Shown here: positions 7,759 through 44,000 of the stretch, piece by piece
Layout of the letters: every line of letters begins with the position of its first letter
How positions within the stretch are numbered: position 1 is the first letter of the stretch
Source of the DNA: Clostridiales bacterium
Lineage (GTDB): Bacteria > Bacillota > Clostridia > Christensenellales > UBA1242
DNA: 64,000 nt
Direction: 5' to 3'
Assembly: GCA_015055605.1 (NCBI GenBank)
Contig: SVHV01000001.1
Span: 315,026 to 379,025 of the forward strand
Notes under the pieces: model-generated
Told to the model about the DNA's origin: nothing
Databases searched by the model: none
The model's input: the letters and a program-made list of their open reading frames with translations, nothing else
Program-made: the position numbers and the translations under genes

Positions 7759-7795
7759 TATCTTGTACAATTTTATTTAATATATAGGTGAATAT

Positions 7796-9118: not shown

Positions 9119-11734
9119 ATGGCTATATCACCTATGATGAGTCATTATTTGGAGACAAAAACTAAATATCCTGATGCAGTTTTATTTTATAGATTAGGTG
9201 ACTTCTATGAAATGTTTTTTGAGGATGCAGAGCTTTGTGCTAGGGAGTTAGAATTAACTCTTACAGGTAAAGATTGTGGATTAGAGAAAAGAGCTCCAAT
9301 GTGTGGTATTCCTCATCATGCTGCTGAAGGATATATTGCAAGATTACTAGATAAAGGTTATAAAGTTGCAGTTTGTGAGCAATTAACCGAACCTAAGAAA
9401 GGCGTTAAAATAGTAGAAAGAGATGTTGTGAGAGTAATTACGCCCGGCACAATCATAGATTCATCTATGCTAGATGAAAATAAGAATAACTATATCGCTT
9501 CTATTTACAAAGAGAAGGACAATATCGGTATCTCAATTATTGATATATCTACAGGAAAATTTATTGTCACAGAATTTACAGGTGACAATATTCTTTCACA
9601 AACTAATGACTATCTAGTGAGTGTTAGGCCTAGTGAGGTAATACTTAATAATGAAATGAAATCGTACTATGATATGTTACCTGGCGTTGTTGCACAGTTT
9701 TTACCAATTTCACAAATTTATGATGACGAACATTATGAATATGATAATAGCCTTTCTATACTAAAAAAACAACTCAATACTGATTCTCTTAAGAAGTATA
9801 ATATTAACAATAGACAATACTCTATAACTAGTGCAGGTGCATTGCTTGACTACATTACTGAGACTCAAAAGAGATTGCTTACACATATAAATGATGTTGA
9901 ATTCTTCGCTATGAATAATTACATGCAAATAGATGCTAATTCTAGGCGAAATCTAGAACTTTTAGAAAACTTTAAAGACAGAAAAAAGAAAGGTTCTTTA
10001 TTTTGGATACTTAACAAAACAAAGACTTCCATGGGCTCTAGATTATTAAAAACATATATTGAACAACCTCTATTTAATGATAAACTTATCAATTATAGAT
10101 TAAATGCAGTAGAGGAACTTGTAAAAAATATTGTTATTAGAGAAAAAATCGGAGACATATTATACAATATCTATGATATAGAGAGATTGTGTGGCAGAAT
10201 TAGTTATAATAATCTTGTTGCTAGTGACTGTATAATCCTAAAAAATTCTCTAAGAGCCTTGCCTGAACTTAAGGATTTACTTAGTAAATTTACATCAACA
10301 GGACTAACAAATATCAGAGAAAATATCTATGAATTTAACGATATTGTTGATTTGCTTGAGAGAGCAATTGTAGATAAGAATAATGAGAAAATGTCTAAAA
10401 AAGACATGGAAATTATCAAATACGGATACAACAAAGAGCTTGATGAATATATTGACATTGCCAAGTCTGGTAAAGTATGGATAAGTGAACTTGAGGCTAA
10501 AGAAAAACAACTAACTAATATTAAAAACCTAAAAGTGTCTTATAACAAAGTATTTGGATATTATATCGAAGTACCTAATTCTCAAGCATCAAGTATACCT
10601 TATCACTATATTCGTAGACAAACTCTTGCTAATGCAGAAAGATATGTCACAGATGAGTTAAAACAAATTGAAGAAAAAATAATCAATGCAGAATCTTTAA
10701 AAATTTCCTTAGAAAAGCAATTATTTGACGAGATAAGAAATGTGTTACTCGCAAAAATTGATACAATGAAAATAACTGCAAAAGCAGTGGCTGAACTGGA
10801 TACATTCTTATCATTTGCCACCATTGCAGTTGAGAGGAATTATTGTAAACCTATCATTAATAAAAATATTAAAAATATTGAAATTTTAGGTGGAAGACAC
10901 CCAGTTATTGAGATTACAAACAAGTCTGAAGACTTTATACCTAATGACACCATTCTCAATAGTGAAGATAGTAGAACAATGATAATAACTGGACCTAATA
11001 TGGCTGGTAAAAGTACATATATGAGACAGGTGGCCTTAATAACTCTACTTGCTCATATCGGTTCATTTGTTCCTGCAACTTCTGCAAAAATCTGTCTAAC
11101 TGATAGAATATTTACTAGAATAGGTGCTAGTGATGACCTATCTATGGGTCAAAGTACATTTATGGTGGAAATGAGTGAGGTTAGCCATATTCTTAAAAAT
11201 GCCACAAATGATAGTTTGATTATCTTAGATGAAGTAGGTAGGGGAACATCTACATTTGATGGTTTAAGTATTGCATGGGCAGTTATAGAACACATTTCTA
11301 AAAATCTCAAGGCAAAGACACTATTCTCTACTCACTATCACGAACTAACAGAACTCGAAGGTCTACTAGACGGAGTAAAGAACTACAAGATTTCTGTAAA
11401 AGAATTTAATAATAGCATTATTTTCCTCAGAAAAATTGTTAGAGGTGGTGCTAGTAGAAGTTTTGGTATTGAGGTTGCGTCCCTTGCAGGACTTCCTACT
11501 TCCGTTCTAGATAGGGCAAGGTCAATCTTACATATTCTTGAGCAAAATGACCTAACTAGAGAAAATCATTTAACTTCAAATTTAGATGAAAACTATGCCC
11601 AAAAGAATATAGAAAATAACAAAAATATAAAGAAAATTACTGGAATTTTAGGGGATTTAGATGTAAATACACTTACACCTCTAAATGCCTTTGATATCCT
11701 AATTCAACTAAAAAATTACTTAAAGAAGGAATAA
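9119..11734 (+). CDS. mutS: DNA mismatch repair protein MutS
   Basis: MutS is the mismatch-recognition ATPase. The N-terminal 'PDAVLFYRLGDFYEMF' contains the Phe-x-Glu mismatch-reading motif (F-Y-E). The connector, lever ('ENFKDRKKKGSLFWILNKTKTSMGSRLL') and clamp regions follow. The ATPase has Walker A 'GPNMAGKSTYMRQ' at about residues 625-637, 'RIGASDDLSMGQSTFMVEM', Walker B 'LIILDEVGRGTSTFDG' and 'STHYHELTELE'. The C-terminal segment 'LTPLNAFDILIQLKNYLKKE' is the usual helix-turn-helix dimer region. The length of 871 aa is standard for MutS1. AAAGGAG precedes the ATG. It is three bases from miaB and one base from mutL. Confidence 0.98.
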   Translation: MAISPMMSHYLETKTKYPDAVLFYRLGDFYEMFFEDAELCARELELTLTGKDCGLEKRAPMCGIPHHAAEGYIARLLDKGYKVAVCEQLTEPKKGVKIVERDVVRVITPGTIIDSSMLDENKNNYIASIYKEKDNIGISIIDISTGKFIVTEFTGDNILSQTNDYLVSVRPSEVILNNEMKSYYDMLPGVVAQFLPISQIYDDEHYEYDNSLSILKKQLNTDSLKKYNINNRQYSITSAGALLDYITETQKRLLTHINDVEFFAMNNYMQIDANSRRNLELLENFKDRKKKGSLFWILNKTKTSMGSRLLKTYIEQPLFNDKLINYRLNAVEELVKNIVIREKIGDILYNIYDIERLCGRISYNNLVASDCIILKNSLRALPELKDLLSKFTSTGLTNIRENIYEFNDIVDLLERAIVDKNNEKMSKKDMEIIKYGYNKELDEYIDIAKSGKVWISELEAKEKQLTNIKNLKVSYNKVFGYYIEVPNSQASSIPYHYIRRQTLANAERYVTDELKQIEEKIINAESLKISLEKQLFDEIRNVLLAKIDTMKITAKAVAELDTFLSFATIAVERNYCKPIINKNIKNIEILGGRHPVIEITNKSEDFIPNDTILNSEDSRTMIITGPNMAGKSTYMRQVALITLLAHIGSFVPATSAKICLTDRIFTRIGASDDLSMGQSTFMVEMSEVSHILKNATNDSLIILDEVGRGTSTFDGLSIAWAVIEHISKNLKAKTLFSTHYHELTELEGLLDGVKNYKISVKEFNNSIIFLRKIVRGGASRSFGIEVASLAGLPTSVLDRARSILHILEQNDLTRENHLTSNLDENYAQKNIENNKNIKKITGILGDLDVNTLTPLNAFDILIQLKNYLKKE

Positions 11735-21955: not shown

Positions 21956-22837
21956 TTATTTATTAGATTCTCGAGTCTTACTTTTATTCAAGAATTTACC
22001 TAATATAAAGTTTTGTAGCGGCTCTTGATATTTATAAATAATAAAAACAAAAGATGTGGTAATTACTAAAATGACTAGCCACACATATACTCCCCAGCCA
22101 GTAAATGGAATTAGTTGTCCACTGCCAAAAAATGACATACAGACAACTCCAATGGGTCTTACAAGTATCGTTACCCAAGAGAATGATAACAAAGACATAT
22201 TAGTAATACCAGCAATCAAACAAAGAATATCATCTGGAAACATAGGAAGTAAAAAAGCTATACTTAAGAAAAACGAACCTCTCTTTAGAATCATAGAAGA
22301 ATATTTATCACAATTATTCTTCCCCACTATCCAAGAGACAATTCGATAACCACAAGTCCTTCCTATGTAAAAAGATATAAAAGAACCTATTAAAACACCT
22401 ATACTACAATATATTCCACCCATTAGTGGTCCATATATTAGACTTCCTACTATACATATTACTGCTGCTGGTATAGGTAAAATAACTACTTGTGCTATTT
22501 GTATCAAAATATATACTAATACACCCTTTTCTTTAGTAGATAGGATATATTCTTTAAGAGAAGACACTGAAGAAAAGAGAGAAATTATATTTAGTTTCAA
22601 TAAAATAAAAAAAGACACAATCACTACAAAACATAATATATAAATAACATACAGCAACCTACTTATACTTTGTTTTTTACTAAAAATATAGGCAAAAACA
22701 AGTAAAGATATGGAGGTTATGATTATAATAAGTTTATATGGTAGTGCTAGATACTGATTATCAATTTTTAGTGTAAAATAGATAATTGACAACAATATTA
22801 TAAAATTTAAAAAAAATTTTAAAGACTTTTTGAACAT
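21956..22837 (-). CDS. TVP38/TMEM64 (VTT/DedA-related) membrane protein
   Basis: This is a polytopic inner-membrane protein of the VTT domain family, related to DedA and implicated in lipid handling. The signature is 'VVILPIPAAVICIVGSLIYGPLMGG', 'GVLIGSFISFYIGRTCGYRIVSWIVG' and 'LLPMFPDDILCLIAGITNMSLLSFSW'. The ORF track starts 86 codons too early: that part is antisense to the ABC ATPase. The ATG at 22837, preceded by AGGTG, gives 293 aa with two or three N-terminal helices before the VTT domain. It is divergent from the ABC operon (88-base gap) and convergent with the PadR fusion. The substrate is unknown. Confidence 0.88.
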   Translation of the reverse strand: MFKKSLKFFLNFIILLSIIYFTLKIDNQYLALPYKLIIIITSISLLVFAYIFSKKQSISRLLYVIYILCFVVIVSFFILLKLNIISLFSSVSSLKEYILSTKEKGVLVYILIQIAQVVILPIPAAVICIVGSLIYGPLMGGIYCSIGVLIGSFISFYIGRTCGYRIVSWIVGKNNCDKYSSMILKRGSFFLSIAFLLPMFPDDILCLIAGITNMSLLSFSWVTILVRPIGVVCMSFFGSGQLIPFTGWGVYVWLVILVITTSFVFIIYKYQEPLQNFILGKFLNKSKTRESNK

Positions 22838-22925
22838 ATTTGCACCTGATAAGTAAATATATTCAAATATATTACGAACAAAATAAATATATAACCTAAA
22901 AAAACAAAGAAAAAGGAGAAATATT

Positions 22926-23864
22926 TTGAGTAGAGTCATCCTTGATGTATCAAATGTAACAAAGGTATTTGGTAATAGAGTAGCTGTAAATAATGTTTCC
23001 TTCTCAATCAGAGAGGGAGAGATTTTTGGTTTCTTAGGACCAAATGGTGCTGGTAAAACTACCACTATGAAAATGATTTGTGGACTCTCAGGCATTACAA
23101 AAGGTACAATTAGAATATGTAATTACGATATGCCAAAAGAACAAGAAAAGGCACTTGCAAATATCGGAGCACTAATTGAAAATCCCCTAATGTATCCTAA
23201 TATGACAGGTCTAGACAATCTAAAATATTATGCTAGTCTTTATAAAAATATTAAAAAAGAAGACATTATCAAATATGCTAGAGTTGTTGGTCTAGAGCAT
23301 AGACTAAAAGATAAGGTAAAAACATACTCTTTGGGTATGAAACAGAGATTAGGTATTGCACAAGCCCTACTCCACTCTCCTAAGCTTCTTATTCTAGACG
23401 AACCACTAAGTGGTCTTGACCCAAATGGCGTAAAAGAAATGAGGGATTTCCTAAGGATTCTCGCCAAAAACTACAAGATTGCTATTTTAATTTCTAGTCA
23501 CATGTTAGCCGATATGGAACAAATATGCGATACAGTGGGAATTATTAATAACGGTCAATTACTTGAGATTAAATCTATTAATAATCTAAAAGAGAGTATC
23601 GGTGGTACTAAGCGTTTACAAATCAAAGTAGACTACCCTAACTATGCAGGTAAAATTGTAGTAAACGAGCTAAGACTCAAGGCTGAGGTTGCCGGTAATA
23701 GAGTTCTAGTTCATGCAGACCAAGACCAAGTTGGAAAAGTATCCCAAACCTTAATAAAATATGGTATCAATATATTTGGTATAGATATTGTATCTAAATC
23801 ACTAGAGGCAATATTCCTAGATATAATCAATAATAAACAAAAAGGTAAAACTAGTATAGTATAG
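22926..23864 (+). CDS. ABC transporter ATP-binding protein
   Basis: This is the ATPase subunit of an ABC-2 type exporter, in the BcrA/CcmA-like group. Walker A GPNGAGKTT is at about residues 38-46, the signature 'YSLGMKQRLGIAQALL' at about 133, Walker B 'LLILDEPLSGLDP' and the H-loop 'LISSHMLADMEQICD' follow. The C-terminal ~90 residues form the usual accessory domain. The start is TTG, supported by AAGGAG seven bases upstream and by the absence of a suitable ATG. It lies 12 bases before the permease, so the two form one operon and presumably one complex. The substrate cannot be inferred. Confidence 0.94.
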   Translation: MSRVILDVSNVTKVFGNRVAVNNVSFSIREGEIFGFLGPNGAGKTTTMKMICGLSGITKGTIRICNYDMPKEQEKALANIGALIENPLMYPNMTGLDNLKYYASLYKNIKKEDIIKYARVVGLEHRLKDKVKTYSLGMKQRLGIAQALLHSPKLLILDEPLSGLDPNGVKEMRDFLRILAKNYKIAILISSHMLADMEQICDTVGIINNGQLLEIKSINNLKESIGGTKRLQIKVDYPNYAGKIVVNELRLKAEVAGNRVLVHADQDQVGKVSQTLIKYGINIFGIDIVSKSLEAIFLDIINNKQKGKTSIV

Positions 23865-23876
23865 AGGAGGAAAAAA

Positions 23877-25982
23877 ATGACAAGCACTTTTAGGCTAACA
23901 TCTGCTGAGTTTAAAAAGATATTCAAAAGACCTAGCATATTCATTATGGCCATATTATTAGTTATTGCAGTATTTATTTCTTTATATACATTCAACCCTA
24001 ATAGTAGAGTTGATAATACAGTTGACTACTCACTCGATAATTCTCTGCAATACTATACAACATTTTATTCTGGTAGCACAGAACAAACTAAAAGCGATAT
24101 CGATAATAGTTTCTTAGCAACAGATGAAATTATTAACTATTATAAACTATATAATGATAGAAATTCTAAATTAAATAGCTACTATAATGACATTTATTCG
24201 GCAATTAGAAAGGTAGAATCAGAAACTAGTGCTCAACTAAAAGCATCTAAGTTTAATGATGTTATAGAAGCACTAGAGGACTTTAAGAGAATATTTGTTT
24301 CATTTGATGAATTTGTTGATATGAATAATGCACAATATGATTTTATTACTATTACAACAACTTCACAGGAAATAAGTGGCAAGACATCTTATACATATTT
24401 AGACAACTCCCTAGCTAGTTTAGATTATCTCATAGATTATGCAAAATCTCATACTTATCATGAATTTATTGATATGTTTAACCTAGCCGGAAACGGACAC
24501 AAGACAAAGCTTGAAAAAGTATTACATCATGGTCTTGATTACATCCAAACAACTTTCTTAGGCATATCTCAAACTATTGCTAAAAATTATTCTGCTTATG
24601 AAGCTTCAGTTGAAAGTTCAAAAACAGACAATTCAATTAGAATTGGTAATAGAAATGCACTAAAGACAGCTTTAGAAACATATCAAACATATTTTAAACT
24701 TGTTCTTGATAATGACTACCCTCTAGTTTTAGTAAATAAAGATAAAAAGGTTGCAATAGAAGAATTAATTATATCTGCTATTGATACTATCTCTATTCCA
24801 GTTTCTGAAGAAAAACTATATAATAGTCATAAAACTGCGTTTGAAAATTTAGCAAAACTAAATATTATAAACAATATAAATACATTTACAAATAATGAAA
24901 TTTCTCAGTTTGAAGTAGATAACTATCTAATCAATGACTACACAAATTACCAAAAGAAAGTTAATGATAATAGAACTGCAATTCTTACAAAAATCGATAA
25001 TCTAAAAAATGATGAGGCAGTGAGCAATATACAATTTGCCATTACAGAATACTACCTACTCAGTGAAGCATATCACAATTATATTTACGATAAAACAATT
25101 ATATCTGTTACTGATTCTTACGAAAAAACACAATATGTAGATTTTTACAAATACAAATTAGATGAGTTTAATAGATATCAAGTTAACGAAGCGTTAACTA
25201 CAAATAAGTATTATATTGATAATAATGTATACGAAAATTCATATTTAACAAATTTTGCATTTAATCAAAAATCAGGAAATGGCGATACCAACCTATTTGA
25301 CTTTATGTACTTTGCACTTGAGCTATGTGCTGTGATTATTATGGTATTTGCAGTAATGCTTGTATGTAGTTTGATTACAGGAGAATCAGAGAGTGGTACT
25401 ATAAAGTTATTATTAGTTAGACCATACAAAAGAGGCAAAATTATTACTGCTAAATTATTAGCAACTCTATTCTTTGCCCTAACATTTATGATATTCTCAT
25501 TTATCATTACATTTGTTGGTGGCTACTTCTTATTCGGTATGCCTACACAGAATGTTTTAGCCGTATTTAACGCCACTACAGCCTTTGAAATTAATCCTTT
25601 AGGACTTATGGGTATCAATGCCCTATCGCTCCTTTTAGACATAGTTTTCTTCGTTGTTTTAGCATTAATGATTTCTATATTGTGTAAGAACTATGCTGCA
25701 TCTATTTCTGCTGTATTAGTAGTTATAATACTAAATTATGCACTAAATGTTGTATTTGGAGGTACATTCTGGTATACTGTACTTCCTGGAATGAATCTGC
25801 ACATCTTTAAATACTTTGGTAATGCATTTACCTCAGTTGGTGATGGAATGATACTACAAACCCTACTACTCACATCTATTGAGAGTTCAATGACATTTGT
25901 GTTTAGTGTTCTAGCAAACCTATCATATATGGTGATTGCACTTGCAATATCATATTCAGTATTTGCAAAGAGAGATTTCTAA
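23877..25982 (+). CDS. ABC-2 type transporter permease with large extracytoplasmic domain
   Basis: The 701-aa membrane subunit partners the ATPase. One helix near the N terminus (~residues 20-40, 'IFIMAILLVIAVFISLYTF') is followed by ~430 residues of polar, helical, Tyr/Asn/Asp-rich sequence predicted outside the membrane. Five or six helices then follow from about residue 470 ('ALELCAVIIMVFAVMLVCSLI', 'LLATLFFALTFMIFSFIITF', 'LLLDIVFFVVLALMISIL', 'ISAVLVVIILNYALNVVF' and a last pair). 'GESESGTIKLLLVRPYKRGKIITAKL' is the conserved ABC-2 cytoplasmic loop. The RBS AGGAGG is strong. A hairpin terminator follows the stop. Confidence 0.9.
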   Translation: MTSTFRLTSAEFKKIFKRPSIFIMAILLVIAVFISLYTFNPNSRVDNTVDYSLDNSLQYYTTFYSGSTEQTKSDIDNSFLATDEIINYYKLYNDRNSKLNSYYNDIYSAIRKVESETSAQLKASKFNDVIEALEDFKRIFVSFDEFVDMNNAQYDFITITTTSQEISGKTSYTYLDNSLASLDYLIDYAKSHTYHEFIDMFNLAGNGHKTKLEKVLHHGLDYIQTTFLGISQTIAKNYSAYEASVESSKTDNSIRIGNRNALKTALETYQTYFKLVLDNDYPLVLVNKDKKVAIEELIISAIDTISIPVSEEKLYNSHKTAFENLAKLNIINNINTFTNNEISQFEVDNYLINDYTNYQKKVNDNRTAILTKIDNLKNDEAVSNIQFAITEYYLLSEAYHNYIYDKTIISVTDSYEKTQYVDFYKYKLDEFNRYQVNEALTTNKYYIDNNVYENSYLTNFAFNQKSGNGDTNLFDFMYFALELCAVIIMVFAVMLVCSLITGESESGTIKLLLVRPYKRGKIITAKLLATLFFALTFMIFSFIITFVGGYFLFGMPTQNVLAVFNATTAFEINPLGLMGINALSLLLDIVFFVVLALMISILCKNYAASISAVLVVIILNYALNVVFGGTFWYTVLPGMNLHIFKYFGNAFTSVGDGMILQTLLLTSIESSMTFVFSVLANLSYMVIALAISYSVFAKRDF

Positions 25983-26077: not shown

Positions 26078-29000
26078 TTACATATTAGAAGATGAATTAT
26101 GTAACCAGTATTCATAAGGTTTATTTACTGTAATATCTATTACAATATCTCTTGAGATTGTATCTAGATTAAATGAACCTATATAATTGAATGCAACATT
26201 ACTATTGTTAATAGTAGCATAATTATCATAATAATCACTATCTGCATTTAATGTATAACTGAATGCCGACACCTCAGTTGTACATGCTGCATTAGTATAT
26301 AATTTTGATGTTCCTATCGTGGTTGTTGTATCAATATAATATGTCACTCCACCGATAATTACAGTATTATCAGCAGTAATATTATAGTAATATCCAGCAT
26401 AATCTCCAGAAGTAACTTTTACTCTTGAGATTGTAGGATTATATGTAATATTTGCATTAGTAATTGTTGTCTTGTCTGTTTCGTTAACATAGAACATAGG
26501 ATAGTACAAATATACACTCCATGTACCATAATCATCTACTGTAAAGTCATAGTCAACACCAGCATAAGTGTAAGTATATACTGAGTCAAGAACTCCATTA
26601 AATATGTTAGCAAATGTGTAGGTTTCATTATTCTTCATATCAATAGAGTATGCATAGTCTACAATACCTGCACTATTAGTATGAACTAGTACCACTGTTA
26701 CAAAGTCATCATCTTGTACACCATCTGTTCCCGCGTCAGCAGTAAGGGTTGAATTAAGTGTTAGATTGAATTCTCTATATTCGTAAGTTATTACAAGTCC
26801 ATAAGTCTCTGCGACTAATTCTTCGTGTATATGAATATCGTTATTTGTGTTATCTGTATACTTATCATAATATGTAATAGTTTCGTGTGTTCCATCCCCT
26901 CTAATAATCTCACCGAATAGAACTGAAGACACAAGTCCATTAGAAGTATTAGAAATCATTACATCTATATAGTCAGAAGCCATAATAGAATATGTAAATT
27001 CTATTACAGAAGTATCAGCATATTCAGACGCTACAATATCTGCATAATTACTAACCACTTCATTGCTTGCATTCTTATAGAAGATTGAATCAATACCTCT
27101 ATCTTCATGGTCTAAGCTACCCATGTATAGATTACCTAATTGAACAGTTGGAGCACCGTTTTTGTAAGGATTATATACTACTACATCAATCTCTACAGCA
27201 TTTCTGCCATAAATTGATCTTAGTACAGGATAATCCCAGTTAATGTGATAGATATAAGTCCAAATATTTGAGAAATCCCATGTAGACTTATTCTTAAATG
27301 CTTGTTGAGATACAAGTTCTTCAGTAGTAATACTCTCAATCATATCAGTTGCTGTGATTGTGAATCCACCAGTATTATTTCTAACTGCACCAGCCATATA
27401 ATTACCCATCTGTGGGTCTTTACGACTGTCTACTAGATAGTAGTTTTTAGAAATTTCTAATGAACTATCATAGATATTGTTAACAACATAAACCGAACCA
27501 GTTCCTGCCTTGAAAATTATCTCATTTGCAGAATAGTTATTCTTCATTATTGTATGCCAATTAATTTCATGAATAATAGATGCTACATTTGTAACATTAT
27601 ACGATACAATTTTACCTTTAGAATAATTATCTTTAATGGTAGTTTCTGATGCTGTATACACCAAACCAGAAACCGAACTATTCTCAATAGGTGCTCCTGC
27701 ACTACTATAGCCAGTAAGTATTCCGTTGAAATAATTTTCATTAACAGCATAATCTATTCCATCTATATTCAAAGGATTATAATTATAACCAACTAGACCA
27801 GCAATGTGTGTACCAACACCTAATCCAACAATATTTCCACCGTAATCATCACCGATTGCATAAGTGCTATGTAATTCTCCTTCTGCATTATATCCAGTAA
27901 CTGTAGATGCTGTGAGTTTAGACTCCCACAACCATCCTACTAATCCTGCAACGACTGGGTAATTATAATGATTAGAAGAATATCCTCTAACAGAACCGGA
28001 GATATAATTAACATTACTAATAATTGTAGAATTTTCAGCATCTGATACCACTACTGCTAAAATATTTCCAGTACCGGCAATGTTAACACTCTCAAAATCA
28101 AGACCCTTAATATTAGAATGAGTTGTATAACTAATAAATGCTGATTCGCCCATATTATACCATCTGTTTTCATTACCTATTGTCATACCAGAGATAGTAA
28201 TATTATCTGTTGCTACATCATGTTTAAGATCATCTGCAATTACTTCGTCAATACTATCTTTATCAATACCATAAATGCTAATACTATCATTAAATCTTTG
28301 AGAATTAATAGGAGTCCAGTATCTACCAGATAAATCAATATCGTTAATAATTACAAAGTTCTTTCCAATTAGTTCTGGATTTCTGTAAGAAGTTGCCCTA
28401 CTTAACCATGCTAATTGATAAACATTTTCAATACCATAAGCATCAATGCTTGAATTATAAGGAAGGTCACTGAGTGAAATATCTGCTACATTATTAGTGC
28501 CATCATTATATTCAATCCAAAGGCCTGTATCTTTGACTGTTTCTGTAGAAGAATAGTCATTAATACCTAAAGTAAAGTGACCTTGTACCTCAGTAAACTT
28601 AAGTACAGGATAAGTGTATGAGCCAGTACCCATTGACCAATCGGTCATGAAGTCAAATCCTACAAAACTATTTTCATCAGACATTTGAGCAGTTGTTAAT
28701 GGGACTGCAGATGATGCTATAGAACTTGTATTGTTACTAGATAAGTAATAAATATTTTCTATAATTGAACCTGCTTCTTTATGAGTAATTTCATAAGAAT
28801 TGGAACCACTCTCAGATAACAATTTTCCAACATTATATGCGTTTTTCAAGATACCATAAGTAACCCTACTGATACCAGAAGCATCCTTTCTTCCTGCAAT
28901 GATCTCACCACTATTGTAAGCATTAATAATAGTACCTGCATTATTGTATATAATACCAGCAGCATAATATACTTCATTATTAATTGTACCTGTATTTGCA

Positions 29001-32000
29001 AGATTATATCCTATACCATTACCGAATGATACAACACTAATACCTGCAGCAAATATATAGCCTCTCTTATTTGTATGATTAGCGAGTACGCTTACATTAC
29101 CATTATTAATTACATTATAAATTGTAGATGAAACAGTCTCGTTTACATCATTTTTTGCAACAATACCTGCAACATATATTTCTGAACAATCTATAGAAGA
29201 ATTGTCCATATAATATTTTATATCTGCATTATTAATAATATTACTAATTGTTCCACCATTACTATATGCTGCAACAGGTGCAAACAATCTAACATATTGA
29301 TCAGCACCAGCAACTAAATTATAGTTCGCATAATTAGTAAATGAAGAATTATCGTTAATTGTAATATTGTTAATTAGTCCATAATGTGCTGAAACTAAAC
29401 CTACATCTGCGTAAACACTCTTATCAGAAGAAATAGATGATGCCATTGCAGATTTAAATACTAAATTATCGAATACTAAATCTGAAATCGAACCATTTAA
29501 TCTATTAATTAAACCATACTGATATGTTTCTAATGTTGCATTGCTATAAATGCATGTTGCCATACCATAGTGATAGGTTGACTTATTCTCATCAGAAGTA
29601 TTTACTTCTCTGCTAGTCTCACCAACTAAGAGATAACTATCAAGAAGCATATTCTTAAATGTAAATCCATTACCGAAGATTTTTCCTTCAAATCTTGCAA
29701 TGCTAGGAGTATACCTACTCTGGAAGTCAATATCATTAGTTACAATGAAATATGAATCTGTATAGTAATTATTTGTACTTCTGGAAGTATTAACAATATA
29801 ACCCCAATCGCTTGCTTTGGAAATCTTATATGGATTTTCATAAGAACCATCACCTAAGATACTTGTACCTGTTGGAATTTCTGTACCCAACTTATCTACT
29901 GTTGTATCTGTGTCATTCCAATAATATCTAATATATTTAACATGTAATTCAATATTACCGTAAACATTTGTTAGAGTAATTGTATGACCATAGTTATTAT
30001 CTCCTGTTAGATTTCCATCAGCATCAGTGACAGCATATAGCTTAGAATTTCTAGTCATATTAGTAGCAATCTCTACTAATTCACCATCTTGATACTTATT
30101 GATAACAGGAAGATAATTTGTGGTAATTGTATCTTTGTTACCTGTTGTTATGGTGTAGTTTTCACCATTGTAATATACTCTATTATCCATTGTATCTTCT
30201 TTAGTTACATCTTTGAGTCTATATGTATAATAAGTAATATTTACTTCGTCATAGATATATTTCTCATCTGGATTTAGAGTAATTTGAATAGAACGACCAT
30301 GTCTAACTGTACTTACAATATCTATACCTGTTAGATATGTTCCCTCTTCGTTAGGAATAAACTCATCTGCAGTTACTGTACCATTGTATGCATTGATTCC
30401 ATTCTGTTGGTCGTAGTCGTCATCATCTGACTCATGTCCGTTATCAACTATTACATTGATATTATAGTTGCTAGGGATATAGTTAGCAATAATTGCACTT
30501 TGACCAGAATATGAATATTCTACACTATCTACCCTATAGGTATATAGCTCAAGAACATCAGGACCAACACCTATTGTATACTCTGTAACATCTGGGTTAA
30601 TACCTAAGTCAAGATATTTGCCTTGAGTTTCGTTCCATTGAGTGAATGCTGTAAACTTATAAACACCTCTATTATATGTACTGAAGTTTATAGGAGCAAA
30701 GCTATCTACATAGATTTTTGCAATAAACCTCTCGTCTACATAATCTACTGTGTCTATTACAGAACCTTCTGCACCATAATCATACATTGTACCAACTAAC
30801 TTATAAGAACCCTTATCTGTTTGTCCTGTTGCTAGTAAAGATGTTGTAGGATTAATAGAAGTATAATTCTTTAGGTTATAATTCTTTGCACTTACTTTAG
30901 AGTCTTCACTAATAGCTAGAACTTCTTGATTAAATTCATAAGCTGTTGGAGATGAATAATTCTGTCCAGCACTTGCTACAGGAATTTCTTCGTAGCCACT
31001 TAAGTATCCGATAGGATATTCAATACCAATATCAATAGAAATGTCTAATTGCAATTCTACCAACCACTGTTTAACTAGAGTTACTATATATTCACCACTA
31101 GTTTGTGGAGTGGCAATGAATGAAATGCTAATCTTATCATTATCTATAATGTAATCCTGTGGTGTGTATGGTGAGTTATCTTTGTTTAGAGTATAATAAT
31201 TGCCGATATTATATATTCCATTCAAGTCATACTCATCAGAAACAGAATTTGTAATGGTCTTGTCGCCATCTAGATAATTGTAACCATCGCCATCAGAAGT
31301 AATATCATCATCTTTTAATGACCATGAATCAATTCTGATATTTGTTGTAGCACCTGTGCCTAACAATGCAGAGTTTAGAGTAACTGTGATTGTTACAGTA
31401 TCACCATAGTAGATACCTGCTAAGGTTGTTTTCTTATCTACAGATAAGTCATTATTGCTAGAAGTTAGTGGGTTTGCACCTCTAGAAGCAATTACAATGT
31501 TGCTAATTAAGTTTTCATTCTCAACTGATGTAATTTGTTCTTTACTAGCAGATACCTCATAAGTATCTATATCATTAGAAATAGTGATGTAATAATCAAA
31601 TCTATTTCTACTATACATATTATAATTGCCATCATTACCAAGAACTGTTGCATTAGGTGTCATAACGAAGTTCACACCTGACTTGATACCTAATTCGTTG
31701 CTATCTGAGTTTTCACTATGAATGTCATCTAACATAGTATAGTCACTGCTACTACCTGAAACGCCAGTAACTAGTGAGTTTAGTTCAATTCTAGTAATAT
31801 GAGAGTATATTGCAGCAGTTACATTTATAGTAACACTTGCACCTCTATATACATAGATTGTACCGTCATCATTAATTACAACATTTTCAATTTCTATACC
31901 ATTGTCTTCTGAAACTGAATTATCATTGTTAATCTCGATAACATATAGATATTCATCTGTCTTGATGTATACAAACTTCCTATTCTCCTCTCTTGCATAA

Positions 32001-35000
32001 GAGAAATATTCATCAGCAAGTAATGTTGACATCATGTATGTATAATTTTCTCCTTGTGGGAGTTCTACAATATAATCATTGAAATACTTAAATACTGGTA
32101 AACCATTGTTCTCTTCAGCATATATAGACCATATATTACTATAATCCCAGTTATTTGCATTAAATGAACTACTTGTATTAGTTAAATCACTAGAAGTTCT
32201 TTCATTTACTTGAACATAGTATTCACATGGTGTACCTATGATTGCTGAGTATGAGATATTGATGAGACCATCAACATTGGTTGTATTTAGTACTGTTGCA
32301 CCACTAATATAGTTAGAATAGTAGCCATGTACTATTGTTCCATCAGTAGGAGCAATAGCTAATGCTGCCAACTCAACATTGTATATATAGTTGGTTAATA
32401 GAATTTTACCTGCAAAGTAATTATTAGTAAATGATAAATGTAGGTTAGTTGTACTTTGGATTAATCCACTCAACCTATATACCCTATCATCTCTATCTGC
32501 CATCTTAAGTATGCCAGTAGAATATAAGTTATTATGAGTAACTATATCATAAGTGAATTCAGTAACCTGACTAGTATGAGCATTATCTGTATAGATTTTG
32601 CCTTCATAGATAGTACCTGCAGTCTGATAGTAATATGTAATACCACCGATTATAACAGTATCGTCTGTTGTAATTGTAAAGTATCTACCAGCAAATTCGC
32701 CAGATAGAACTTTTACATGAGGTAGTGCTTGAGTTTCTGCAATAATAGAAGAAACATAATTGAAACCAGAAACTATAGCATTATTACCTATTGAGATGTT
32801 TACAGAGTCGCTAGTTGCTACACCTATAACGCCACCTGTATACTCTCTACCGATAACTACACCATCATTAATGATTGTATCTGCTACTCCATTATTTTTA
32901 CCTATTACATTACCAGTGTACTTAGCAGTACTAATGATATCTCCATTGTATGATACTTTTCTGATAGTTCCGTTGTTTATACCAACCAAACCAGCAGTAT
33001 AAGAATCACCTCTAGTAGAGAATGTTCCAACTACTAATGCATCTTTTATAAACAGTTTCTCAATAACACCACTATTTGTATTGATTAATGATACATTGTC
33101 TACAGCATCAGATTTAATATAGTAATTAGAAATTGTATGCTCATCACCATCAAGATTTGCCTTAAAGTCTATGATACTATCTACCATAATGCCTGATAGG
33201 TCAATATCTGCTTTAAGTACAAAGTATTTACTTGCATAATTATATGTATTATATTCTGTAGCGTTAATCTGTTCTATGAAGAATAAGAAATCACCAACAG
33301 TTTTAATCTGGTATGGATTATACTTAGTACCTGCACCAGATAGAGATACAACTGTGATTGTAGTATCAGATATAACTGGATTAAATGCCAAGTGTCCTAG
33401 TACAGATTGATTATTTTCGTTAAATTTCCAAATCCTTACAAAGTCTAAACCAGCAAGTGCTAACTTAATATTATCTTTAGTTAAGCTAGTAGCTTGTTTA
33501 AATGTGGCATCAGGTACAGAAATACTTGATGTGTAGATTATGTAATTATTGTTATAATTAGCCTCAATATCATCTGCATCTACTGCATTAGTGAAATAGA
33601 TATGCTCAGTTGACACTGTACCATATAACTCAAATACGCTATAGAATACTGCCAAAGCCTCACCGATTGCAAATGAAATTTCCTCATACTCAAGATCAGT
33701 TTCCTCATAGTGAGTTCTGGTTGCATAAGCATAAGTATTGTAAATATTTGCAAAGTGTGCTTCGTAAATATCTGTTGATGTATCTGGATAGTAACTAGTG
33801 TTACCTAAGATTGCACCAACATTATTATGTGAAGAGATAAATTCTGCTCCCACATAACATTCGTTAACTGTAGTATTGTATAATGCTAAACCAACTAAAC
33901 CACCTAGTCCAACATTTTTGTCAGAATCTACAGATGTAGTTTGATATAGTCTAGCTGACTCTATTGAAATAGAATCAAATGTTGTATGTTTAGATTCACC
34001 TACAACTAGTCCAACTGTTGTCGCAATACCAGAAACAATTGTTGGGTTTACAAATTTGATATTTGTAAATTGTGCATAGTCAGATTTTGCTATAAATCCA
34101 TTAGCTGTATACTTACCTGCATCTAAATCTGCATTTGTTACATTTGCATAAGTAAGTTCAATATATAGGTCTTCGATTTGACCAACTGAATCACCCTCGC
34201 CAATAGTAAACATAACACCGGTAAACTCAGGTATAGGCATCCAGAATTTGTCTGACATATCTAGTTTACCTAAGATTTGATAATAAGCATCACTAAATCT
34301 ATATTCTTCATCACTATAGATATATGTTGCTGTAGGATAATTGCATAGTACATAGTCTAACCATGCTAATTTGAATGTTGAGTCGATTACAAATGCAGTT
34401 TCTCTACTCAAACCATTTGCTCCAGCAGAAGCCTCACCACCAATGTCAACAAATTGAATAGATGATAAATATGAATCTAATGAGCCAGTCATATTAGTTG
34501 CAACTGTATTAGTAAATGAATTTGATGTCACTCCACTAATTGATTGACTGTAATACTCTGGTATATATGTTGTTTCACCCATCTGGTCAAAATATGAGAA
34601 GTAATCTTTCTTGTATGTTAACTCAATTAATGCATTAGCATCAACCTGAGACAACTTGCCATATTTATATGTATAAACATAATCATGACTTGTAGATGTG
34701 GTATTAAGTGTATATGTTAGAACACCTAATCCTTGCATTCTATAAGTAAATGCTGTTACCAAAGTAGTACAAGACTCATTAGTATAGAGTTTTGAAGAAC
34801 CTTCAGCTGATTGAGGATTAATATAATATGTTGTACCACCTATCACAACTGAATTTCCAGTAATATCAAAGTATTGACCATTATAGTCGCCACTAGTTAC
34901 AGTTACTCTAGAAGATGCTGTATAACTAGTATACTTAACACCATCTGTATCATATCCTGTATTGTCTGCATTTGGAACTAGAAGAGAACTAACTTTGATT

Positions 35001-38000
35001 GCATCAGTCTCATCTGTGAGACGGTACTTATCAATAGCAGTCATCTCAATTACTGGATAATACCCATCAGGCATCTTTAGAATTGCCATAATACCCATAT
35101 CAACACTATATGCAATCTCACCGTATAGATGTATACCAAATGCGAATAAATCTATAGGTTGGCCTGTGTAATCGGTATTTAGGTCAATCTCTGCACCAGA
35201 TGATACAGAATATTTCATAATTCCATTATCATTGATAATTGAATATAGTATTACAGAAGAGCTACCATCTGCCTTATTAGATAGTTTAACATCAACTCTT
35301 TCGTTGACATCAGGATTCTTTAAATGAAGTGTAATATCATATAATTTGTCGTTCATGTGGAATGAATATATACCGAAAGTATTTTCAGCAAGAACGAAAC
35401 TGATATTAATATCATAACCAAGACCTGTCTCTGATAGAACTGAGTTATTAATCAAATATGTTAATGTGTAAGCGCCAGTGATATCTGTTAATGTATTATC
35501 TGCCCTATTCCAATCATATACTTTCTCGATGAAACTAGAATCTTCTTCAAGTTTATATATATGAGTCTTTTCAACTGGATTAGCAGGGTCTGTAATGTCA
35601 AGGAATGTTCTAGTAAACCAGTCAATTCTTGAACCAGACCTAGCATTTAGAATATCAATTCTAACTCTCTCTTTCTCACTAATTAAATTACCAGGAGCGA
35701 AGTTTCCACCACCCTTGCTTTGTGGAGTATATACATAAGTGCTGTATTGTACAGGAGAAAGTTCGTTTGTACCAAACCAGATGGTAGAACCACTATCCTC
35801 TATACATAATTCATCACATATATGTCCAGGCATATCAGGACAATTTAGATTTACTCCTTCATCAAAGCAATCAGTTTCACTATGAGTATGATAGTGTAAG
35901 TCACCATCAAGACCACTCATATATACATACTCAACCCATGGATGATAACTACCAGCAGTTACAGCTGCAACTGATACTGTGATAGAACCACTATTTACAT
36001 AAGTATAAGCAGTATTTCCTGTTGGAAGACTTCTAGTAACAGAATTAGCAGTTAGACTAACATAATATGTTCCACTCTTATTAGGAATAGACGAACCATA
36101 ATAATAATCGGTAGGATCAACTACAGTATCTTCACCATTATTCATAATGCCGATTAAATATGGGAAGTTACTTGTATTAGAATAATCAAGTTTAGCATTA
36201 TTATTTGGAACAGATGCACTAAATGTTTGGCTTGAACCATAAGGTAAGAATACCCAACCTTTTAGTCTAACACCGATATAGTAGTTGTCACTTAACTGAT
36301 ACTCATTTGGAGTAAATGTATAAGTTACTGTACTATTTGTAAATTGTGCATCAACACCTGCTTTTGGAGTACCATCATCATCAAGTATTGAGTTCTGATA
36401 GTAGAACTTAGCATAATCTGAATTGATTGTCCAAGCATTCTCTGTCGGATTATTATTATAGTATGTTGTATTGCTATAGACTCTGTTATTATATGAGTCT
36501 CTCTGTGTATAATCAACAGTAATAGTTCCGTATTTATTATTAGCAGCACTATTTGAACCATTGATTACACTATTTAGATAATAAATATCTTTACTAAATA
36601 TAACTTTAATTTCGTTGTCATTAGTTTGAGCTACCTGAACACTAAATCCAGTTAATCCATTTACTAATTGAGTATTAACACTGAAATCGTTATATGTAGT
36701 CTTGTAACTATTGCCCATTGAAGCATTAGTTTCATATTGATTACCAGAAGCAGCAACTATACCATTTACAAGAATTGCTACAATATGATAACCAGTGTTA
36801 GCAGCAAAGCTCAATGTATAATATGGAGCACCTGTTGCTAAATCATGTGTAACTTTTACATAGTAGTCAATTGAATAATAATTTGGCTCAGTATCAGGAG
36901 TTTTCTCATACTTAATTCCTGTAGAAATCTGATGGAATTCAGAATTATTTGTGAATACACCACCATTATCTGCAGTTTCTCCAGCTACATGTCTAACACC
37001 TTCTGTTTCAATAGTAACCTTAATATCATTTGATTTAATGTTACCGATAAGAACAGGATAAGTATAACCATCTGTTGTAACTGTATCGAAATACCAAATA
37101 TTACTATCTTTAAATCCATTTAGTCCAGCAGTAGATAATTGCAAGTCAGATGCATTTGTAACACCTGAAGGACTGCCTGAATATGTTCCACTTAGCATAT
37201 ATGCATAATTTGTTATGAATGTGCTATTTGTGAATCCATTATTTGATAGTTTATAGAATGTTGCAGATGAATAGAAATTATTAATACTTAAAGCTGAAGC
37301 ATCATTCTGACCAGCAAGAGCATAAGCTGTTGATGGATTTGAAGAGCTCTTTTCGTACTCATTAATTTCTGCAAGGAATTTAGAACCTGCTTTGTTACCA
37401 AAGTATGCATCAGTAACTTCTGTAATTGTGCTACCAGCTCTACCTATTAATCCACCATATAGTTGATTAGCATGTACTCTCTGTGTATGACCATAAGACT
37501 TAATTACTGCTGATGAATGTGCTTTGTAAATATTAGAGTGAGCATATCCAACTACGCCACCAACAAACAATACATCAGCTGTAGACTTAGTAGCAAAGTA
37601 TGAATTATTGATTTTACCAGTAAACTCTACTTCGTAGATTGGTATATCTGCATCAATTTTACCAACTAAACCACCAACATAAGAATCTTTATAGTTCACA
37701 ATAGTAGAGATATCAATCAATGAATCGTTAACATATACTTGATACATATCTGCCATGTCACCAGCCATATTTCTAGCAACAAATCCGAAGTATTGAATAT
37801 CTGTTGTATCTTCATCACCATTAACAAACATGTATGAATTAGTAATATATAGATTTCTAATTACACCATAGTTGTTATTAATTAATGATGCCGAGTTGTA
37901 GTTACCATACCAGAAGTCTTTTAAATATAGACCAGATAATTTAAATCCACCACCGTTTAAAGTATAACCTCTAGGTAAATCGTAACTTATCCAAATATCA

Positions 38001-41000
38001 TTACCGAAATCAATATCGGATACAATTCTAAATTCTACATATTCAAGTGTTTTGTTTGCATCTTGATTAGCTGAATATAGATATGTTGCAAGTTCTGTTG
38101 CAGTAGAGATTGTATATACTTTATTACTAATGATACCATTTGTATTCGAACCACTTTCAAGAGTAACAACAGCACCAACTGATTGTCTAGCCATTGTCAT
38201 AATTCTAGGAACTCTATCAATAGTTGCGATTGAATACCATCTATTATTATCTTCAAATGATGCACTACTATAGGAAGCCGTTGTAGTAATCATTTGTTTA
38301 ACATAGATATTATTTAGACTTAAGTTAGAAACGATATCAGCAATTGCATAATTATCACCACTAGCAGAACAAATACCGGTTACATTTACATAAATATCAT
38401 GTAATGTAGCAGTTAGTACATTTGTACCAACAGTGCCTATAACACCACTAGATAGGATATTAATATTTAGATTGTCTTTTGCAAAGCTATTACTAATATA
38501 CATTGAAACAGCCTCATTTGACTCTGTCTTAATGCCAGGATTTTTGTCTCCATATAAATTTGCACCAACAAATTGACCAAATACTAATTCACTACCAACT
38601 AATGAATAATTCACATTTGCTTCATAAATACCAGAATTATTAATTGATATACCAGATGCATTAGAAGAATCTGTTGTGTCATAGTTGTATGTAGTCGCAA
38701 TATACTTAGATTCAATAGAATAAGCCTCTGCACCACCTACAAATAAACCAGTTCTAACTAGACTACTTGCATTTTGCATAGCATTTAGATCACCAGAAGC
38801 AACGCCTGTAGTTGGATTATCATCTATATCTTCTGTCATATCAAATCCACTAGCAAAACTATCTCTCTCATAACCCATGCTAAAGTTAATACTTTCACCT
38901 AATAGGATATAACATTTGTCTAAAGATGAATCTACAAAATATCCACCAATTACACCATTTGCTTTACCAATACCATTATAATAATAACCATTGAATCCAA
39001 AGATGTTTAAGTTATTAATACTAGCATGAATTGCATAAGGAATAAGTGCCATACCCTGAAGTTCATGTAAGTTTCTGTATGTTACATAAGTAGTAGTACC
39101 ATCGCTAGTATAACCATTTGCTTTACCAATAACATTGACAAATGAACCAGTTTGAACAACACCATCTGCAGGAGCATTAGTATATGCAGTTGAATATATC
39201 ATATCTCTAGAAGCTGTTATTTCTATTCCAGAAATTATATGACCATTACCTTCAAATGTTCCAACGAATGCATCAATGTAAGGAATCCATAATTTACCAC
39301 CTAGTGATATATCATTCTTTAAGTTAATTACTGCATTTCTATCAGATACAATATTAGAATTTGACAATACAAATGCTAATTGTTCTGGAGTAGAAATATC
39401 ATAAATATTCTTACCACCCACTATTCTAGCAGAAACTTCTGAAGCAGAATGACTCCATGTATCATTTGTTACAAATGCAAGAGTTACATTAGTTGTAACC
39501 TGCAAGTAGTCAAAGTCAACACTTACAGTCTTTATAGAATAAATAAAGTAATTATCTTGTAACAATCTATCGTCAGTAAATTTGAATCCGTCACCTGCCT
39601 CTGGATAGAATGCAGAAACAGATGCAAGGCTGGCATAAGGACCAGGGAATGCTCTGATAACAATATACTTATAGCCCTGGTAAGTTAAGCTATCTGTATC
39701 TCTATCAATCTCAGTTGTTAGTTCATTATACAATTGATTCTCAAATATGGTATTAATACTACCTATAACATTATTAATTTGAGATTCTTTTGAATATCCA
39801 AACTGGAAGTATCCGTTACCTTTAATATTAATAATATCTTTTGACTGAGCATCAAGTTTGTATTTTGCAACTAAGAAGTTTGTTCCCATGCCTGGCATGT
39901 AATTCAATGTGTAACCATTAGTAATAATAGTTGCACCACCATCAGTTGTAAATGTTCTATTTGATACGGCTATATAATAAAGTTTCAATGTTGTTGACTC
40001 TATTATATAAGAAAGGTTTGTTGCCTTAATTGTTTTAGCTGCATCAGTATATAATTCACCTTCTTTTACATAGTAAACAGTTTCTCTAATAGTTACTTGA
40101 TTACTTGAAATTGTATAGGTTTCATATATTAGATTTGAGCCGTCAGTAAATCCAACAAAATTATACTGACTATTATTTGATGTTCCTAAACTAATATTTT
40201 CAGCAAATAATGTAATCTCTACATCTGCTTGGAAGTTTGAATTAATTGAATTTGCTATAGATGTAGCATTATCCAAATAAACATGATTTCCAATATATTC
40301 GTTAGAAACTATATTTCCTCTAGGAGTTGTTTTGCTTAGAGGTTTACTACTTTCATTAGCAGGAATAGTTGTATCGATAGTAATCTGTGACATTGATACA
40401 ATAGGTTGAACTTGTGGACTCATGTATCCAGGTTGAATATCAAGAGTAACAGTTGCCTTCTTCATGAAGTAGTATGCGATATAGAACATATCTTTGTCTG
40501 GATATAAATTTGTAGGAATATTAAATGAAATATCTACACCATTATATTCAAACATTGCTCTTGTAACTGTAGGTACGCCTGCAGTATACATGATTGTCTC
40601 TGTATATAAACCGTACAAGTTAGAATTAGAAATATCTAATTTTCCTTGATATGTTTGATTTACAAGAGCGTGAACGTTCTCAAAATATTCGGTTTCAAGC
40701 ACTTGAATAGGTGTTTGAATATCGATTTTCATAAATCCAGCTGTACTAGATTCTTCAATTACAAATGTTTCTATTTTGATAGTATACTCTCTAGCAAATG
40801 TACCAGAAACAGCATGATTACTATTAACGATAAGGTCTTCGGCTGCAACAGTAGTAGAATTTACTTCAAGAGTTTTATTTACATACAACTCTCTGTAAGA
40901 TTCATAACTACCAGGAGCTACTGCATCATATTCATGGTCGTTGCCATCAACTTCAACAGTATGCTTAATTACCTTCATATCATTTCCATAATACAAATAT

Positions 41001-44000
41001 GTTGGAATATATCTTTCGGTAATCTTGTACTGAGCTGTATCTGCATAGTATGGAGTCGACACAACCGTATAAGTTGTATCATGTACTGTAGCATCTGAAG
41101 TAAGTTCTGTATAACTTCCTACAACATAAACTGCTGTATAGTTTGCGTTTGTATGACTCTTAGCAATCTCAACACCAGTTGCTGATGCATAAGTAGAATT
41201 ATAAGAAATTTCAGATGCTCTAGTAGACAATTGAGCAAGAGTATAATCAAGGACATTGTATACACCATTTACAGTATTTTCAGATGCATTTTGAGTAGTT
41301 AATGCTGAAATACTATATGTTGTATATCTAAAGTCAGTTGATACATTTGTTGTAATTGTTCCCTTACCTGTTGTTACAGGTTCAAGCATTACTTCGTATA
41401 TAGGTATATAATAAATAACTATATCGGAATTTGCCCTAATAGATGACAATATATATGTGATATGTTGTTCACCATCTTTCGTTGCAATATTTGTAGTTAA
41501 TAACAGGTCAGCATCGTTCAAGTCAATCATTATATATCGATAACCCTTAAGGTAAACACCAGAAGAATATGAAGGTTCAACAAACATGTGACTATCAAAT
41601 GAAATAGTTCCATTGAATGTAATAGAATAAACTCTGTATGCTGTATAACCATCATCTGTTAATGTATAACCGTCTGTACCAAAATCATTGTCGAAGTTAT
41701 TAGTTCTAAGAGCAAGAACATCATCATCAACAGATTTAAAGTTTACAGTTACATTTGGATTGTATGAGAATAAAGCAATTACATGAATTGTGCCAGTATG
41801 AATTGTAGCTGGAGTAGTATCAAGAGCATCTTTTAATCTCTCAGTACCCCAGTCGGTCATAGCACCAACATTTAGAGCCTCTTTATCATTCTCATAAGTA
41901 TAAATCTTATAAGTAAATGTATTAACAGGCTGTGTAAATGAACTATCAAAATATAATGTTGTACCATTTACATAGAATGTTTTATTAGTAACTCCATTTG
42001 TTGCAGTAATAGAATTTCCACTTACAACATACTGTCCCTTGTATTCACCTGCAGTGATACATACAATAGGTTTACCATTTAAGAAATTATTATCAACAGT
42101 GTAACCTACTGTGTCTGCATTTAAGAAACTATGGAAGTAGTATCCTATAGTACGAGTATTTTCTACAAATTCACCAGTTTCTGAGTCAAAAGACCATCTT
42201 TCTACTTGAGCTTTAATTGAAAGTTCGCCGAAGTATCCAATATAACACTCATTACCAGAGTCTGACTCTAAACGCTCCATATACACATATTTTTGTAGGA
42301 ATTCGTTACCATCTTCACCACAAATATAGTGATCAGCAAGTGCTGCTCTATCAGCAACAGTTAATCTTTCATTAAATGTGTCAGCCTTTATCCAGATAAT
42401 TGATTCAACATTATTTTCAATTCCTTCTGGAGAGCCATAACCTTGATAGTATGTAACACTATTAATAGTAACCTGTCTATTAATAATGTCATAGTAATTC
42501 AAATAATTATCTTTCTTATCAAATGTTAATACTTTTCCATTAGAATGATAAGTATACGCATAAGGATACTCTCTAGCATGCGATGGTTCTAAATATGCCT
42601 TACTATTATGAATATGTAATGGAGTTTCTAAATTATCAACCCTATTACCATCAATAATACCAAAACCATAAGTATAAGCAGTATTTACATATATGAATTT
42701 TGTACAATATATATATGTCATTACAAATGGTAAGTCAGCTAAATTTAATAAACCATTATGCCCGTAACTAGGGTCTCCGTATAGTAAACGGCCACCAGCA
42801 TCTTCAACTACTGTAATAGTATAGGTTTTGTCAGTGCCTGTTGCAACATCATAATACTTAATTTGAACACTACCATTCTGATTAATATAATAACCAGGAT
42901 AAGCATAACTACTATTACTTGAATCAAGTTTTTGAGTAATGCAGATTGCAGGTTTATTTACAAACTCATAAGCAAATCCTGCCTCAATTGTATATGATGA
43001 ATCTAGATAAATCTTATTATTTGATGAATTAAAGTAATAAGGAATATTTATATGAGCAACTCCATCTTCAACCAAGAAGAATTCATTACCAATTTGAACA
43101 GATTCACCACCAACAACTTCATGTCTAAAGTCTTCATTTGTAACAGGAATTGTTCTTGTTGCATCTTTATAGATAACATTCTTAAGACCATAACCACCAC
43201 CATCACTAGTATCAGCAACAACGGCAGTTGTAATATTAACATTAACTTTTTGCTCTGCAACAACTAATTTAATTGCAATTTCTTGTCCAGCTGTATCATC
43301 TAAGAAGAAGTCGGTTGTGTCATAAATTAACTTATAACTCTCTTGTGGAATATATTGGTTGCCACCCTCATCATAGATATCCCAGAATGAGAACTCAAAA
43401 CCTTCACAAATTTCTGTAACTTCTGCATAGACAGTAGAATATCTATCTACATATAAACTACCACCATAGTTAAATACATTAAGACCACCAGTAGTATTAC
43501 CCATAGTAGGAGACATGATTTGGTTGCTAGCATTTTTACCAGTCATTACTCCGATTGTATATGTGCCACCCTGGAAGTTTTCTGAATTTGCTAAGCCTGT
43601 TGCACTATAGAATCTCTTAACAGTTTCATGCTCTGCAAGTTCAATGGTATTAGCAAAATCAATGTAGTATGTTGTAGTAGTATCAACATTTGTTGTGAAA
43701 TTAAATAACACATTTTTCTTATCATAGTTAAATCCATTATTATATGCATATAAGTGTGTTCCAGAAGTTCCTGATGTAAATTTACCCTGATAATGTGCTT
43801 TGTAATCATCAATCTCAAGGAGTCCTTTATCATATCCAGGTCTAGTAACTCTTATAATTCTATAAGGATTAGGACTAGTAATTGTTACAGATGAATTGTA
43901 TGCATAAGGAGCTAAAGCATATACATAAATCTCTGTATTATACTTAACTCTAATTGATGTACCATCTATACCAACTAGTTTAGATTCGTCATTGTCATAA

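Follow-up and report, generated by a model that had tools for sequence, protein, structure and literature searches.

Bacterial surface proteins are usually seen to gain domains through tandem repeats or by swaps at their ends. The Rickettsia palindromic elements are palindromic DNA sequences that are dispersed among many genes. In-frame insertions of these elements within genes have been described (for an example, see PMC5656822). Giant1 to Giant5 of Apilactobacillus kunkeei, a gut bacterium with a small genome, are Asn-rich extracellular proteins of several thousand residues with β-solenoid parts; they are built from an N-terminal β-solenoid, long internal repeats, and C-terminal DUF5776 domains (PMC12863079). 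The β-solenoid of Giant4 has short loop insertions that are absent from the other Giants, and these giants have been diversified by short intragenic recombination (PMC12863079). A literature search on giant genes and proteins found the Apilactobacillus work and nothing on the lineage described here.

We analyzed a window of 64,000 nucleotides from an uncultured gut bacterium of the Clostridiales (contig SVHV01000001.1 of GenBank assembly GCA_015055605.1), which contains the gene for a giant, predicted surface protein. Giant1 to Giant5 of A. kunkeei are the closest published counterpart of the encoded protein, which resembles them in its size of several thousand residues, predicted extracellular location, Asn richness, β-solenoid-type parts, and short insertions, and in coming from a gut bacterium with a small genome. 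In contrast to the Apilactobacillus proteins, it carries dispersed single modules. When the whole giant was scanned against Pfam in five segments, DUF5776 was absent and no model exceeded its cut-off, and self-comparison found no long internal repeat arrays, only dispersed pairs. The features of the locus are as follows.

60103 to 61692, minus strand: RNase Y, the upstream neighbor of the giant gene, syntenic in all five siblings
26078 to 58288, minus strand: the giant gene for the predicted surface protein, with 10,736 codons when counted from the first GTG (from the ORF list)
58034 to 58099, minus strand: hydrophobic segment near the N terminus, residues 64 to 85 (from the sequence)
26081 to 26188, minus strand: conserved C-terminal end, DTxxRD...KxxExWLH, common to the orthologs, with the tail around EYWLH
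23877 to 25982, plus strand: ABC-2 type membrane protein, which flanks the giant gene downstream, syntenic in all five siblings

The first GTG of the giant gene (58288) is probably not the start codon but lies 46 codons ahead of it. In the orthologs, the N termini begin close to the position of the ATG at 58150 (codon 47), which suggests that this ATG is the true start and that the protein has 10,690 residues. The hydrophobic segment is preceded by KPNF(K/R)V(K/Q)HP, which is common to all five orthologs, and the segment is probably a membrane anchor or signal, with the anchoring role predicted from sequence. The gene makes up 2.4% of the 1.33-Mb genome. Self-comparison shows a β-helix-like motif, NDIDxSG...FDGNGYTI, at several places in the giant, and in this the giant resembles GLUG-type surface proteins.

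Orthologs of the giant, 9,610 to 10,526 residues long, were identified in five further genomes from the same genus. All five are flanked by RNase Y on one side and by ABC-2/VTT genes on the other, and this synteny on both sides secures the orthology of the giant genes. The siblings' RNase Y proteins are 83 to 86% identical to that of the window species, whereas the giants are only 26 to 32% identical to each other across species, which indicates that the giant is hypervariable. Its sequence conservation increases from the N-terminal toward the C-terminal part. In an unrooted tree of the giants, the window species (G000) is adjacent to G011 (split support, 89).

Two side observations concern the locus and its protein. 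The VTT-domain gene (21956 to 23095, minus strand) and an ORF at 22926 to 23864 (plus strand) overlap at 22926 to 23095, and both match siblings by tblastn; the start codon of one of them may be set too early. Short Cys/His-rich stretches, HYHTHSETDC...C...HICDELC and the like, lie at 35752 to 35920 of the window (giant residues ~7457 to 7512) and in the giants of G003 (residues 8859 to 8913) and G011 (residues 1246 to 1306), and in G003 and G011 they are species-specific insertions. These inserts are possibly metal-binding or cross-linking.

The sequence-only reading of the window had described three clear, dispersed copies of a module of a family that it did not recognize, and looser relatives of it. 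The clear copies proved to be real, and all of them lie in the one giant gene. Their positions are listed here; the bit scores are against a profile that was built from these same three copies.

26240 to 26422, minus strand: module copy 1, near the C terminus, residues 10623 to 10683 (profile match, 10620 to 10685), 114.8 bits
32537 to 32716, minus strand: module copy 2, within a β-helix-like repeat region, residues 8525 to 8584 (profile match, 8522 to 8587), 117.1 bits
34730 to 34906, minus strand: module copy 3, residues 7795 to 7853 (profile match, 7792 to 7855), 110.6 bits

The three copies share one ORF, strand, and frame, and each scores above 110 bits. Across them, 22 of the 66 module columns are invariant, and protein identity between pairs is 42 to 58% (61 to 62 columns), while the best full-length pair is ~69% identical as DNA. 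A search of the whole 1.33-Mb genome found three module sites only, all inside the giant ORF. The copies are indeed dispersed, being scattered across 8.7 kb, or ~16 kb if the looser ones are included.

For the looser relatives, we ran the profile on the masked giant and compared the scores with those of ~40 null sequences, which were the five orthologs, forward and reversed, and 30 local shuffles.

41894 to 42067, minus strand: looser copy 4 (42 kb), residues 5408 to 5465, supported, above all of the ~40 nulls
39995 to 40117, minus strand: looser copy 5 (40 kb), residues 6058 to 6098, borderline, C-terminal two-thirds of the module only
42962 to 43051, minus strand: the 43.0-kb candidate of the sequence-only reading, residues 5080 to 5109, within the null range

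The stretch at 42 kb scores 6.4 versus a null maximum of 4.5 (15.3 versus 8.3 when uncorrected for composition), which supports its assignment as a copy of the module. The assignment of the 40-kb stretch is borderline, with a score of 3.5 versus a null maximum of 4.5 when corrected and of 8.9 versus 8.3 when uncorrected; this segment is missing from all five orthologs. The 43.0-kb stretch was rejected as a copy, since its score falls inside the null range.

A search with copy 1 of 12 other genomes of the genus found nothing, and neither did a search of the five full giant orthologs with the module profile. At each clear site, the module adds ~60 residues in frame, and the sequences on either side align well with those of the siblings. 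In a local search around copy 2, for example, G011 matches query residues 3 to 425 and 490 to 827, skipping the module, and only 12 bp separate the two matches in G011. A multiple alignment of the giants shows the same skipping at copies 1 and 3 and at both looser sites. We measured insertion lengths as the number of residues between conserved anchors in the window species and in its five siblings. There are 67 residues between the anchors at the copy 3 site, versus 13 to 22 in siblings, and 74 at the copy 2 site, versus 14 to 20. The copy 1 site has 70 residues, versus 15 to 16 in G011 and G005. This site has 54 residues in G009, in which the extra sequence is a module of that species' own, and 42 in G003, which indicates that it is length-variable in any case. 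The 42-kb site has 91 residues, versus 30 to 53 in orthologs, and the 40-kb site has 54, versus 8 to 18. Over the five sites together, most of the sibling lengths fall between 8 and 36 residues. Because the sibling giants are very divergent, the boundaries of the insertion sites are known to within a few residues only. Each clear copy is a lineage-specific insertion relative to the sibling species, and based on the tree, the nearest relative, G011, is among those without the module.

The family was described at first as unrecognized, and database searches bear this out. Scans of the module copies against Pfam, NCBIfam, and PHROGs found nothing significant. The PDB, searched with a sequence profile, was likewise negative, and GTDB genome contigs yielded no accepted relative when scanned. 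Profile searches of 297 genomes of the family (E ≤ 0.01) and of 396 genomes of the order and 391 of the class (both E ≤ 0.001) gave only weak matches, none above about 24 bits and most of them covering just a portion of the model. Most of these matches were inspected, and they were rejected as relatives because they covered a partial model or belonged to different protein types, among them short membrane proteins and a separate surface protein.

The fold prediction that the sequence-only reading called for gave a confident small β-domain. AlphaFold modeled copy 1 alone with a pLDDT of 80 and the three aligned copies with a pLDDT of 90.6 and a pTM of 0.75; the aligned copies gave a compact β-domain with one short helix. 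In two Foldseek searches of the PDB, the top matches were almost all ribosomal uL24-type KOW proteins and none was significant (best E = 0.24), with TM scores of mostly 0.23 to 0.36 for superposition on uL24/KOW structures. One search of a viral Foldseek library found nothing below an E value of 0.13. The module might instead be an outlying representative of a fold family that is already established, for example the KOW/SH3-like barrels, in which case the domain itself would not be new. The uL24-type matches point in that direction, as does one of four copies that matches the Pfam KOW motif (PF00467) below its cut-off, with an E value of 0.14. The uL24-type small β-barrels and the module are alike in being small β-domains with a weak resemblance in sequence and structure, but no significant match links them: no Foldseek E value against the PDB is below 0.24, the TM scores are mostly 0.23 to 0.36, and no sequence match passes any threshold. 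We regard membership in an established family as unlikely and class the module as a small β-domain of ~60 residues that has no description so far and may be SH3/KOW-like.

Tiled-window self-comparison of the sibling giants revealed two other dispersed families. The G003 giant has a family of ~75 residues in six copies, at residues 2094, 3645, 4531, 4807, 5182, and 5987 (loci L033 and L034), with the pattern KLRGKVSSGT...TDGTTxTLTGK...ITYNSSR and it weakly resembles galactose-binding domains of the F5/8 type (E = 0.025); several of these copies are clean insertions. The G009 giant has a family of ~44 residues in three copies, at residues 4019, 4958, and 10158 (loci L031 and L032), with the pattern YxxTxDTxVxxGKxYY...NPxTxGYYE, and its third copy occupies the same site as module copy 1 of the window species. 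Each family is found in the genus in only a single species and gene if weak single matches are set aside; for the G003 family, these are one match in G011 and another in the window species. No dispersed private family was seen by tiled self-comparison in the giants of G011, G005, and G002. Kinship of the window module with the G003 or G009 family was rejected (hhalign probability, 2 to 3%). Giant ORFs from other genera of the bacterial family (G276, G236, G186, and G229) also contain dispersed modules of the G009 type, with several copies each in G276 and G236. The private families of the siblings suggest that each lineage adds modules of its own to the giant gene.

The module copies are closer to each other (42 to 58% identical) than the giant orthologs are between species (26 to 32%), which is consistent with spread after the species split. 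In all copy pairs, pN is lower than pS, although for copies 2 and 3 only slightly (0.42 versus 0.46), which indicates that the protein sequence of the module is maintained. At fourfold synonymous sites, the differences between copies are 0.51, versus 0.55 expected at random. This saturation means that the insertions are old and that their donor, their mechanism, and any empty-site junction at the DNA level are no longer readable. Dating the insertions by synonymous sites was dropped as uninformative for the same reason.

The age of the copies would also fit an ancestral domain that the common ancestor already had at these sites and that the other sampled species no longer carry, and because the species tree has no root, a single loss across the root is formally possible at each site. 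Such a history would need loss at three to five sites in every one of the five orthologs, including that of the nearest species, G011, and would have to account for copies that are more alike than the giants that carry them; the private families of the two siblings would require this pattern of losses to be repeated. We consider an ancestral origin quite improbable. We give similarly little credence to the idea that the copies were each acquired from outside, from other giant genes or phage tail proteins, rather than duplicated within the gene. The recurrence of the G009-type module in giants of several genera means that a shared pool of modules may exist, but for the window module the family, order, and class genomes returned weak scores only, and each copy is most closely related to the other copies. 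Phages, plasmids, and viral contigs contained no match to it, and a phage or plasmid origin was rejected on these grounds. It is very improbable that the module is a mobile DNA element which, like the Rickettsia palindromic elements, enters coding genes in-frame: the copies are short, in-frame, several in number, and restricted to a protein-coding gene of one species, but they all lie in a single gene on the same strand and in the same frame, show no unusual hairpin (z = -1.2, -1.4, and 0.0), no palindrome, and no flanking direct repeats or terminal inverted repeats, and are constrained in substitution at the protein level.

Based on these comparisons, we consider it likely that a lineage-private domain was inserted in-frame and dispersed within one orthologous, hypervariable, giant adhesin-like protein. 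A compact, self-folding β-domain of ~60 residues would have entered a preexisting orthologous giant in the window lineage only, at three and probably four or five separate places. Duplication and dispersal within the gene is the simplest reading of how it multiplied, and we infer that the molecular route was nonhomologous or microhomology duplication rather than the action of a transposase. The insertions, which lie between segments that are conserved in siblings and include one in the β-helix-like stretch, would be extra domains on a scaffold that predates them. In two siblings, this gene appears to have gained unrelated-looking modules, so it may be a recurrent acceptor of small β-modules. 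Judging from its context, the module most plausibly adds a binding or shielding surface, an exposed decoration on an adhesin-like protein that is anchored in the membrane at its N terminus, and this surface may have been changed lineage by lineage under selection from host ligands, phages, or competitors.

More tentatively, giants throughout this bacterial family may accept lineage-private β-modules, with each lineage dispersing a different domain by a process that is confined to the gene, keeps the frame, and adds or replaces loops at recurrent sites. If true, this gene-confined dispersal would diversify proteins by a route other than tandem-repeat expansion, phase variation, diversity-generating retroelements, and transposons. 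One orthologous gene of ~10,000 codons has a separate dispersed domain family in three of six lineages, which adds domain families that are absent from current libraries. If this pattern is upheld with more genomes, the giants would form a natural series in which the manner, place, and rate of domain insertion could be measured, and would show which forces at the cell surface select for it.
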